Positions 28,880 through 33,067 of a stretch of DNA of 44,990 nucleotides are shown here, piece after piece (positions within the stretch are counted from its first letter, which is position 1; each line of letters begins with the position of its first letter). A model generated the notes under the pieces. That model was not told where the DNA came from. It was given only the letters and a program-made list of their open reading frames with translations, and ran no database searches. The stretch comes from Planctomycetota bacterium (lineage in GTDB: Bacteria > Planctomycetota > MHYJ01 > JACPRB01). The stretch covers positions 1 through 44,990 of the forward strand of contig DATLZA010000130.1 of assembly GCA_035574235.1 (NCBI GenBank), written 5' to 3'. A program made the position numbers and the translations under genes.

Positions 28880-28908
28880 TTGACAGCCTCCTGCGTAAAA
28901 CGTACGAT
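28880..28908 (+). promoter_or_regulatory. Strong sigma-70-like promoter of the histone gene
   Basis: A perfect TTGACA (28880-28885), a 17-base spacer and TACGAT (28903-28908). Transcription would begin near 28915, leaving a leader of about 55 bases that carries the ribosome site AGGAAGGAG just before ATG 28970. It is the best match to consensus in the window. Confidence 0.7.
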
Positions 28909-28969
28909 TTCGGCCGTTTCGGCCGGTTTATTCGGGTTTTGCTCCGGAGGGGGCAGGAAGGAGAGACGC

Positions 28970-29146
28970 ATGGCGGAAGTGTACGTCGTTCAGTCCAAGG
29001 TGCGGGCGCTGGCCAAGAAGAAGGGCTTTCGGTTCAGCGGGGACGCGGTGGACGCGCTGTCGAAGCTGGTGGAACAGGCGGTGATCCAGGCCGGAAACCG
29101 CGCCAAGGCGAACAAGCGCCAGACGATCAAGGCGGCCGACGTATAG
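28970..29146 (+). CDS. Single-domain bacterial histone
   Basis: A 58-residue basic protein that looks like a histone fold. It begins MAEVYVVQSKVRALAKKKG (helix 1), then FRFSGD (first loop, R21 and the S-G-D helix cap), a long central helix (about 25-49: AVDALSKLVEQAVIQAGNRAKAN) and KRQTIKAADV, matching the RKTI-x-x-x-DV second loop and start of helix 3 in archaeal and eukaryotic histones. The third helix is essentially absent, as in the small bacterial histones such as Bdellovibrio Bd0055, with which the MAE-(x)-(x)-VVQSK start and overall length agree from memory. It should form a dimer and bind DNA. Start fixed by AGGAAGGAG; the frame open upstream to 28862 is not coding. It is monocistronic, with its own promoter and terminator. 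Confidence 0.85.
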   Translation: MAEVYVVQSKVRALAKKKGFRFSGDAVDALSKLVEQAVIQAGNRAKANKRQTIKAADV

Positions 29147-29171: not shown

Positions 29172-29210
29172 GCGGCCCCGCGTCGCGAGGCGCGGGGCCG
29201 CGTCGCTTTT
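29172..29210 (+). terminator. Rho-independent-like terminator after the histone gene
   Basis: A perfect 11-bp inverted repeat, GCGGCCCCGCG (29172-29182) with CGCGGGGCCGC (29191-29201), with an 8-base loop, followed by GTCGCTTTTC. The T-tract is short and offset, but the stem is very stable. It sits 26 bases beyond the histone stop. Confidence 0.7.
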
Positions 29211-29238: not shown

Positions 29239-29267
29239 TTGACTCCCCCGGAGGGGAGGGATATCAT
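29239..29267 (+). promoter_or_regulatory. Sigma-70-like promoter of the STAS-tat-bsh unit
   Basis: TTGACT (29239-29244), a 17-base spacer and TATCAT (29262-29267). Transcription would begin near 29274, about 60 bases before the GTG at 29335. Confidence 0.6.
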
Positions 29268-29334: not shown

Positions 29335-30399
29335 GTGCCTGATCTCACGATCCAAGTCCAGGAGGTCAAGGGGGTACCGGGAACGGCCCTCGTCATCCTG
29401 AGCGGATCGATCGACGCCAAGACGGTCATTACCTTCCAGACCCATCTCAACTCCGTCAAGGAGCGCGGCGTCGAGCGGTTCATCATGGACATGGAGAACG
29501 TCAAGTACGTCAACTCCACGGGTCTCGGGTACCTCATCAACCTGTCGGATTCCGTATCCCCCGGGAAGGGGGGGATCGCCCTCGTCAAGGTCCAGCCCAA
29601 GGTCAAGGTGGTCTTCGACATGCTGGGCCTGAACGCGTTTTTCAAGATCTTTCCGACGCGGGAGGAGGCGCTGAAGGCCTTTTCCGCGGATTCGCCCGCG
29701 GCGGCGCCGGCCGAGTCGCGGGGGGCGACGCGCGCCCCGGCCGAGCCGCTCCGGCCGACCCAGGCGCCGACGCCGAGGATTCCGACGCCTGCGGTCGTTC
29801 CCGCGGCGGCTCCGGCGGCGGAACGGTACTCCACGGCCGCCGAGCGGGTGAGTCCGGCCCGGCCCGCCGAAACGCCGGCGGCCGCGCCGGCCGAACCCAT
29901 CCACGTGGAATGCCAGTCGTGCCGGGCGCTCCTGGCGGTTCGGGAATCCGGGACCTACCGCTGTCCCCGCTGCCTGAGCCTTTTCAACTATGCCGGGGGC
30001 GGCCGCGTGAGCTTCCTTCCACGTTCCAAGGCCGTGCCCGTGCAGCTCAGCCTCAGCTTTACCCCGGAATGCACCGAAGGGCTTCTCGAGTTCGTCCGCC
30101 GGCTTTCCCAGAAGAGCGGATTCAGCCCCCAGGGAATCTCCGAGGTCCAGTCGGTCGTTAAAGATACGGTGGAGACGATCCGGCGCCACGCCTACGGAGG
30201 AAGCGACGGGAACGTCTATCACGTCCTGCTCGTGTCCGTGGACTCGGAGCTCGAGATGCGGTTCGCCGATTACGGGACGCCGCTGAGCCCGGACCGCGCG
30301 GATCTTTTCGCCGCGGCGCGGCGCGGCATGGACCGCTTTGAGCTGCGCCATCATCCCAAGGGGGGTAACGTCGTCACCGTGTCCAAGAAGGCGAGATGA
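29335..30399 (+). CDS. STAS / zinc ribbon / HATPase-like fusion protein
   Basis: A cytoplasmic partner-switching-type protein of 354 residues with three parts. Residues 1-118 are a STAS (anti-sigma antagonist) domain, with the phosphorylatable Ser61 in VNSTGLGYL. Residues 119-190 are an Ala/Pro-rich linker. Residues 193-213 are a four-Cys ribbon (C193, C196, C210, C213). Residues 235-354 resemble an RsbW-type HATPase: a helix ending RRHAYGG (284-289), then VYHVLLVSVDSELEMRFADYG with the D-x-G motif (312-314), and a final KGGNVVTVSKK. In active RsbW-type kinases the helix carries Glu and Asn eight and four residues before the His; here these positions are Asp277 and Thr281, so ATP-Mg binding is doubtful. 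GTG start with AAGGGAGAA upstream. It overlaps tatA by four bases. Confidence 0.85.
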   Translation: MPDLTIQVQEVKGVPGTALVILSGSIDAKTVITFQTHLNSVKERGVERFIMDMENVKYVNSTGLGYLINLSDSVSPGKGGIALVKVQPKVKVVFDMLGLNAFFKIFPTREEALKAFSADSPAAAPAESRGATRAPAEPLRPTQAPTPRIPTPAVVPAAAPAAERYSTAAERVSPARPAETPAAAPAEPIHVECQSCRALLAVRESGTYRCPRCLSLFNYAGGGRVSFLPRSKAVPVQLSLSFTPECTEGLLEFVRRLSQKSGFSPQGISEVQSVVKDTVETIRRHAYGGSDGNVYHVLLVSVDSELEMRFADYGTPLSPDRADLFAAARRGMDRFELRHHPKGGNVVTVSKKAR

Positions 30400-30614
30400 A
30401 TATGCTGGAAGCCCTGGCTTTCGCCGGCCTGTCCACCACGGAGCTCCTGATCGTCGTCCTGGTGATCGTCCTCCTCTTCGGCGCCTCGAAGATTCCCCAG
30501 CTCATGCGCGGCATGGGGCAGGGCATCAACGAGTTCAAGAAGGGGCTCAAGGAAGGCGCCAAGGAGGAGAGCAAGGAGCCCGAGTCCTCGCCGGCGGACG
30601 CGGAAAAGAAATGA
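30396..30614 (+). CDS. tatA: Twin-arginine translocase subunit TatA
   Basis: A 72-residue protein with one membrane helix (TTELLIVVLVIVLLFG) and the FG-x-x-K(I)P hinge (LFGASKIPQL), then the amphipathic helix MRGMGQGINEFKKGLKEG and a charged tail. This is the pore-forming TatA/E subunit that transports folded proteins. The ATG overlaps the STAS fusion stop by four bases; a second in-frame ATG is two codons on. No tatC or tatB in the window. Confidence 0.92.
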   Translation: MNMLEALAFAGLSTTELLIVVLVIVLLFGASKIPQLMRGMGQGINEFKKGLKEGAKEESKEPESSPADAEKK

Positions 30615-30799
30615 GTCCCGCCCTGGGCGCGATCGGCCTCCTCGAGGCCGCCCTCATCGCCTTCGCGATCGTGCTTCTTTTCGCTTCCTCCCGGATTCCC
30701 GCCCTCATGCGCGGCCTCGGCGCGGGCCTGCACGAATTCAAGAAAGGGATTCGGGAGGGATCCGGACAGAACGGTCCGACCGCCCCGCCGAAAGCCTGA
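30611..30799 (+). CDS. Second TatA-like protein
   Basis: A 62-residue paralogue, too short to be obvious, whose ATG overlaps the first tatA stop by four bases. It has one membrane helix (LLEAALIAFAIVLLFA), the hinge LFASSRIPALMRGLGAG, and an amphipathic helix HEFKKGIREG. The hinge FG of TatA is FA here, and the charged tail is shorter. It could be a TatE- or TatB-like helper; neither can be told from sequence of this length. An N-terminal Gly/Leu segment replaces the usual polar residue that sits early in the TatA helix. Confidence 0.82.
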   Translation: MSPALGAIGLLEAALIAFAIVLLFASSRIPALMRGLGAGLHEFKKGIREGSGQNGPTAPPKA

Positions 30800-31505: not shown

Positions 31506-32615
31506 TCAATCGCGGTGCCGGACCTGGAGGATGCCTCCGTCCGCGGTGATCTCCACGTCGAGCGCCAGGCCCAGCGACCGCGCGTCCTCGAGCAGCTTCG
31601 GAAACTCCTCGGGCGACAGGAACGTGTAGTAGCGCGTCCGGCCGTCGCGGCCCTGGGAGACGAGGGCGTACTGCTTTTCCCGCTGGAACGTCGAGGCGAC
31701 GGAGTCGCCCCGCAGCTCGATCTGGAGCTTGCCTCTCCCGGAATCGTCCAGGACGTGGAAGACGCGGTCCATGCGGCGAATCTCCGGGAGCGGCACGGCC
31801 GCCGACGGCGTCACCCACCAGAACCGGTCGCCCCGGCGGAGCACCCATCCGTCGAGGAACGTGGAATAGGTGTATTCGTCCGGCGCGCCGCCCACGCGGG
31901 CGGACGCTTCGGGCAGGCCGAAGGGCCGGCGCTCCAGCGGCGCATCGACCCGGATCACCTTCAGGAGGGCGTTCGGCAGCACGAGCGCCTCGGCGTACGG
32001 GAAAATGACCCGCCGGTGACCGGGCCGGTCCGTTTCGGGGGAAGGGGCCATCCGCCGTTCGAATTCCTGCCCCACGAGCGTCCGGTAGCGGACCTCGCGG
32101 TCCCGGCGATCCTCCCAGTAGATCCGGCGCCAGGCCTCGCCCGGAGGAAGCTCGAAGTACAGGACGTGGAAAAGCCGGGGCAGCCCGAGGAGGCGCAGCC
32201 GGGCGCGGACCGTGATGGATTCCCCCGGCAGCAGTAGGCCCGAGTTGAAGACGAGCGGGCGGCGTCCCTCGGGGGCGGGCCGCCCGCGGTCGCAAATCCA
32301 TTCGTCCGAGGAGGGACGGTATTCGAGGTGGCCGGGCATCGCGAATTGCCACGTGGCCACCGCGCTGGCCGCCTCGCCCAGCTTCGGGTCGGCCAGGCAG
32401 GTGAGGTCGCGCAGGACCACCAGGTTGCGGCCGGCGTTGCGGAGGCGGAAGACCACCGTGGCCAGGTCCCCTTCGCGGGGCCGGGACGTCGAGGTCTCCA
32501 GCTCCGTGGACACCCCGAGGCCGGCTTCGGTCGGAGCGGGAGGCCCGCCGGTTCCCCGACAGGCCGCCAGGAGCAGGGCCGCCATCAGGGACGCGCCAGT
32601 TCCGCGTCGTGCCAT
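31506..32615 (-). CDS. Unknown lipoprotein
   Basis: I do not recognise a family. Starting at ATG 32615 the product is 369 residues with a lipoprotein leader: MARRGTGASLMAALLLAAC, with a clear lipobox LAAC at residue 19. The next ATG (32585) would leave only eight residues before the Cys, too short. The mature part has two plausible beta-rich regions: an Ig-like half around 30-170, with 'FRLRNAGRNLVVLRD' and 'LLLPGESITVRARLRLLG', as in CARDB-like or intracellular-proteinase-inhibitor folds, and a second half ending DVEITADGGILQVRHRD. The start overlaps the phospholipase D-like gene by 31 bases, so it is the third gene of the panD unit. Confidence 0.7.
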   Translation of the reverse strand: MARRGTGASLMAALLLAACRGTGGPPAPTEAGLGVSTELETSTSRPREGDLATVVFRLRNAGRNLVVLRDLTCLADPKLGEAASAVATWQFAMPGHLEYRPSSDEWICDRGRPAPEGRRPLVFNSGLLLPGESITVRARLRLLGLPRLFHVLYFELPPGEAWRRIYWEDRRDREVRYRTLVGQEFERRMAPSPETDRPGHRRVIFPYAEALVLPNALLKVIRVDAPLERRPFGLPEASARVGGAPDEYTYSTFLDGWVLRRGDRFWWVTPSAAVPLPEIRRMDRVFHVLDDSGRGKLQIELRGDSVASTFQREKQYALVSQGRDGRTRYYTFLSPEEFPKLLEDARSLGLALDVEITADGGILQVRHRD

Positions 32616-33067
32616 ACGCGCTCGAAGTCCTCCCGGAAAGCCCGGGCCACCGATTCCTCCCATAACAGGACGACGTTTTCGTGATTGAACCGGTCGCCGC
32701 CCACCGTCCAGTTGTAGGATCCGGTGGCCACAAGCTCTGAATCGAACACGGCGTACTTGTGGTGAAAGCGCGTGCGTTCGTCTCCGCGGGGGATCACCCG
32801 GCGCACTTCCAGTCCCCGGTCGCGCAGAGCCTTCACGAGGTCCTCCTCCGCCTGAGAGGCGTCCAGGAGCACCCGCACAGCGACCCCGGCGCGCCGCCGG
32901 GCGGCCAGCGCCTGCGCGAGACGGTCGGACGTCATGTGGAACATGGCCACGAGGATTTCCCGCCGGGCCCGTTCGATTTCCGCGGCCAGGCGCTCCTGCA
33001 GGCGGTCGGCCTGCCCCGTGGGGGCGAAGAGGGCGTCGACGCGCGCCGCCGGACGCGCCGCCGCCAT
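32585..33067 (-). CDS. Phospholipase D-like nuclease, single HKD motif
   Basis: From ATG 33067 a product of 160 residues with one HKD motif, HHKYAVFD (H102, K104, D109), and the following GSYNWT. Single-HKD proteins such as bacterial Nuc act as homodimers on DNA or, in some cases, lipid. The core begins VDALFAPTGQADRLQERL. Family members are often secreted, and sequence upstream in the same frame, ending GAGWILAGFCMAA, would make a signal peptide, but no ATG, GTG or TTG precedes it in a usable position before the panD frame. The start is thus uncertain. It lies 29 bases after panD and its stop overlaps the lipoprotein gene. Confidence 0.75.
   Translation of the reverse strand: MAAARPAARVDALFAPTGQADRLQERLAAEIERARREILVAMFHMTSDRLAQALAARRRAGVAVRVLLDASQAEEDLVKALRDRGLEVRRVIPRGDERTRFHHKYAVFDSELVATGSYNWTVGGDRFNHENVVLLWEESVARAFREDFERVWHDAELARP

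Follow-up and report, generated by a model that had tools for sequence, protein, structure and literature searches.

The window, as we call the whole stretch of 44,990 nucleotides of Planctomycetota DNA analyzed here, encodes at positions 28970–29146 (+ strand) a 58-aa single-fold bacterial alpha3 histone, which carries the face-to-face (FtF) signature and lacks an N-terminal tail. For this protein, we establish below the predicted fold, the homology, the signature residues, and the conservation of both gene order and transcription signals and, by analogy with its characterized relatives, the window histone is likely to be a bacterial FtF alpha3 histone forming an HLp-like tetramer, with ~50–60 bp of DNA wrapped around it. 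Only two bacterial histones have been studied in detail so far, in a field that is newly characterized (PMC13260811). FtF histones of Planctomycetota have already been catalogued, and the window histone adds to these a tail-less member, a third type on a branch of its own, from a bacterium in which HU is encoded as well. An earlier note on this DNA, made from the sequence alone, was right about the gene and its signals and too narrow on the binding mode.

Identity of the histone and residues of the probable tetramer interface

The translated gene is a basic protein (pI 10.3, net charge +7, with 12 K/R and 5 D/E) that contains both features by which it had originally been recognized, an S-G-D helix cap and a KRQTI...DV stretch. 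Its assignment to bacterial histones was borne out, with HLp and HBb the best solved relatives by sequence and by predicted fold. Specifically, the search of histone families including Bd0055 proposed in the earlier note matched the solved structures of HBb (Bd0055 of Bdellovibrio bacteriovorus; PDB 8FVX, 8CMP) and HLp (Leptospira perolatii; PDB 9QT0) at E ~1e-8, and the two obtained approximately equal phmmer scores (37.8 bits for HBb vs. 37.1 bits for HLp). Scores against Pfam Histone PF00125 (22.6 bits, curated cut-off 26.4) and NCBIfam archaeal histone NF043032 (23.9 bits, curated cut-off 50) fell under the cut-offs because the protein is too divergent, and the family was settled by the solved-structure matches. 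An AF2 model based on a seven-sequence alignment (pLDDT 87) has helices at residues 2–18 and 24–47 and one short turn at residues 55–57, the third helix being truncated, and a Foldseek comparison to the PDB ranked HLp first (E 6.6e-4, TM ~0.7) and HBb second, followed by other histone folds. AF2 and Foldseek thus recover the short helix 2 and one-turn helix 3 of bacterial alpha3 histones, and the RxTxxxxD motif of this group is present as R50-Q-T52-IKAA-D57. Given the solved-structure matches, the helix pattern of the model, and the Foldseek ranking, the identity of this protein, the single histone in its genome, as a single-fold bacterial histone is secure.

FtF histones are defined by conserved R48, N52, R54, T56, and D61 without a conserved K/R at position 55, whereas the R and N at the dimer–dimer interface are missing from bacterial dimer histones (Schwab et al., PMC11390915). 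The window histone matches this FtF definition with R44, N48, R50, T52, and D57 together with Q51, and is filed as FtF on the basis of these residues and of the R/N/R triad. This triad was found in 48 of the 55 aligned rows, including the window histone and HLp, and is replaced by S/D/R in HBb and by K/S/K in a separate paralogue group from the same class as the window. The HLp of Leptospira is a tetramer built via R49, N53, and R55 (Hu et al., PMC12701072), which correspond to R44, N48, and R50 of the window histone, just as its RD clamp R55–D62 corresponds to R50–D57; the third helix is truncated in both proteins. The earlier statement that such histones bind DNA as dimers in Bdellovibrio and Leptospira is therefore unsupported here, since the window histone carries FtF tetramer residues that are absent from HBb and HLp is itself tetrameric. 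In one genome of the same class (G008), an FtF-type histone occurs beside one of the dimer type with K/S/K (L004 and L026).

The similarity to HBb calls for weighing a second possibility, namely an HBb/Bd0055-like bacterial-dimer histone bending or coating DNA solely as dimers. The window histone resembles HBb in length, in its MAEV-VV-SKV start, in fold, in the S9-K10 helix start, and in the RxTxxxxD motif, and this likeness is reflected in the equal sequence scores, in the rank of HBb as second-best fold match, and in the presence of HBb-like (K/S/K) paralogues in the same class. We nevertheless consider a purely dimeric protein quite unlikely, as R44 and N48, absent from dimer histones (PMC11390915), are present in the window histone, while HBb, a dimer, has S45 and D49 at these positions. 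Similarly, the K of the RKT motif, K52 in HBb, is Q51 in the window histone, which reads RQT, and in the trees the window histone branched separately from HBb and from the K/S/K group, although an AU test did not reject joining them (p 0.37).

Conserved locus and transcription signals

The histone gene is its own transcription unit, and gene order, promoter, and downstream hairpin are conserved in each of the four family genomes with an assembled locus. The window histone is 57–67% identical to the proteins of three other family genomes, with 53% for the most distant one over its 62 residues. In each of the four genomes, the gene is flanked by a divergent MoxR-DUF58-transglutaminase cluster and by a STAS gene, with TatA next after STAS where the contig is long enough, and PIG-L following in the window, in G002, and in a fifth genome, G001. 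The apparent absence of the histone from G001 is an artefact, its contig ending just upstream of the STAS gene. The identical MoxR/STAS-flanked locus in four separate genomes and the conserved bacterial sigma-70 type promoter described below leave a negligible probability for a chance small ORF or for an archaeal contaminant in the assembly; despite close archaeal relatives (57–60% identity) that could have pointed to contamination, these explanations are ruled out by the synteny. Two consecutive TatA/B-type genes lie immediately after the STAS gene of the window (30396–30799), and a 385-aa protein with no Pfam match (31506–32663, − strand) is conserved beside the histone locus in three other family genomes.

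The promoter consists of a −35 element TTGACA (28880–28885, +) and a −10 element TACGAT (28903–28908, +) separated by 17 nt, i.e., 10 of 12 consensus matches, while shuffled sequences yielded 0.0 such sites per stretch. What had been described as a perfect TTGACA promoter is thus perfect in its −35 element, but matches at only four of six positions in the −10 element. The related claim of a strong promoter dedicated to this gene is supported. The four family genomes share an invariant CTTGACAG at the −35 element, 16 nt, TAnnnT at the −10 element (4/4), most of the TTTCGGCCGTTT block, and a GC hairpin that precedes an AAGGA-type ribosome site. The ribosome site noticed earlier was confirmed as a Shine-Dalgarno sequence, AGGAAGGAG, at 28955–28963 (+), 6 nt 5′ of the ATG and conserved among family genomes. 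The combined promoter and leader motif occurs once in the window genome, and a reversed control gave no match.

Between promoter and ribosome site, a short GC hairpin (28910–28926, +) is located near the predicted mRNA 5′ end, inside the conserved TTTCGGCCGTTT block, and a tentative leader hairpin, TGCTCC-GGAG-GGGGCA (28940–28955, +), directly 5′ of the ribosome site. A GCYCC..GGGGC-like stem was also detected in the leaders of three relatives. Because only one of the four leaders folds better than shuffled sequences (z below −2), we regard these hairpins as a tentative candidate for a conserved RNA element, and an Rfam search of the histone leader matched no family. Downstream of the gene, a GC stem-loop with a weak T tract (29172–29201, +) represents a probable terminator. 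The stem reported earlier does exist, far above chance expectation, but comprises 13 pairs, 12 of them G-C, instead of 11; relatives also have downstream hairpins, with that of the family genomes obviously GC-rich in three and AT-richer in the fourth. A second promoter-like site, TTGACT-17-TATCAT, is found at window positions 29239–29267, before the STAS gene.

Distribution and phylogeny

Histone matches were obtained in 162 of the 392 sampled genomes of Planctomycetota, the phylum of the window, and 98 of 156 Aenigmatarchaeota genomes encode such histones. The best named relatives outside the family are Aenigmatarchaeota FtF histones (L037–L039), which share with the window histone 57–60% identity, the lack of a tail, and the R/N/R triad, but are encoded in archaeal genomes beside archaeal neighbour genes. 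By our reading, their contigs carry genes of archaeal type, among them DNA polymerase B and SecD/F. Every characterized FtF relative comes from other lineages. A single-sequence scan of the genome contigs returned zero relatives, while a search with the family alignment did retrieve them, and no histone relatives were found in the phage and plasmid records searched. A single distant frame on a viral contig (L043:4001–4147) is histone-like at its N-terminus (33% identity) and continues into a C-terminal region that differs, and a bacterial MAG (L041:4001–4400) encodes tandem histone folds, an FtF-like doublet with the R/N/R triad in both.

In a tree of 82 rows and only 58 columns, the window histone and two other family members joined 18 Aenigmatarchaeota rows (96/82, starred), while the fourth member, L005, was placed just outside that group, beside one archaeon. 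The main Planctomycetota clade, composed mostly of proteins with lysine-rich N-terminal extensions, was separate (95/92) and included the tailed HLp of Leptospira; contrary to most Planctomycetota histones, the window histone has no lysine-rich tail. Since three of the four family members are placed with Aenigmatarchaeota and outside the main Planctomycetota clade, these sequences suggest a transfer of the histone gene between archaea and bacteria, in either direction, as already inferred for histones in published work. With 58 columns, a topology constrained to place the family inside the main bacterial clade was 18 log units worse but was not rejected (p-AU 0.21), and p-AU was 0.096 when all bacteria were placed together. 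One possible though doubtful scenario is that this lineage replaced, or never had, the lysine-tailed FtF histone usual for its phylum, and relies on a tail-less histone in common with Aenigmatarchaeota, which would have moved between domains and then come under a bacterial promoter. An archaea-like histone under a bacterial promoter represents a test case for the exchange of histones across domains.

Putative DNA-binding mode and abundance

The DNA contacts of HLp include S14, K15, K17, K21, G29, and T57, as well as T27 and T56 (PMC12701072). The first six correspond to S9, K10, R12, K16, G24, and T52 of the window histone, whereas T27 and T56 are replaced by F22 and Q51, and the terminal residue is V58 instead of F63, differences that count against an HLp-like mode. 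We propose that two chains would pair head-to-tail through helix 2, and that two such dimers would be linked via R44, N48, and R50, located where helix 2 ends and in loop 2, to close a ring-like tetramer. A basic rim formed by S9-K10-R12-K16 of helix 1 and G24/T52 of the loops would contact DNA non-specifically, with ~50–60 bp probably wrapped, as by the Leptospira protein. Transcription of the gene alone from its own conserved promoter would provide a steady supply of this architectural protein beside HU. Judging from its relatives, the window histone is probably tetrameric and DNA-wrapping and plausibly abundant, and with it one could ask if bacterial FtF histones without a tail wrap DNA like the tailed Leptospira HLp.

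An abundant chromatin protein, as envisaged in the earlier note, is plausible from these transcription signals, a strong and conserved single unit being what would fit such a protein, though no measure of abundance. Since HU is encoded in the same genome, the histone is not the sole architectural protein. The presence of HU, along with the expression of some FtF histones far below the main histone (HTkC), would also be compatible with a minor or specialized regulator (e.g., weakly expressed or stress-tied) rather than an abundant chromatin component. This role appears fairly unlikely for a stand-alone gene whose consensus-like promoter and strong ribosome site are kept in four family genomes, in a genome with no second histone. 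Separately, contig C59 of the same genome encodes an unusual HU fusion (L078:588–1937, − strand), a 449-aa protein with two N-terminal HU-like DNA-binding domains, a C-terminal HATPase_c_2 (anti-sigma kinase-like) domain, and an unassigned, receiver-like stretch between them.
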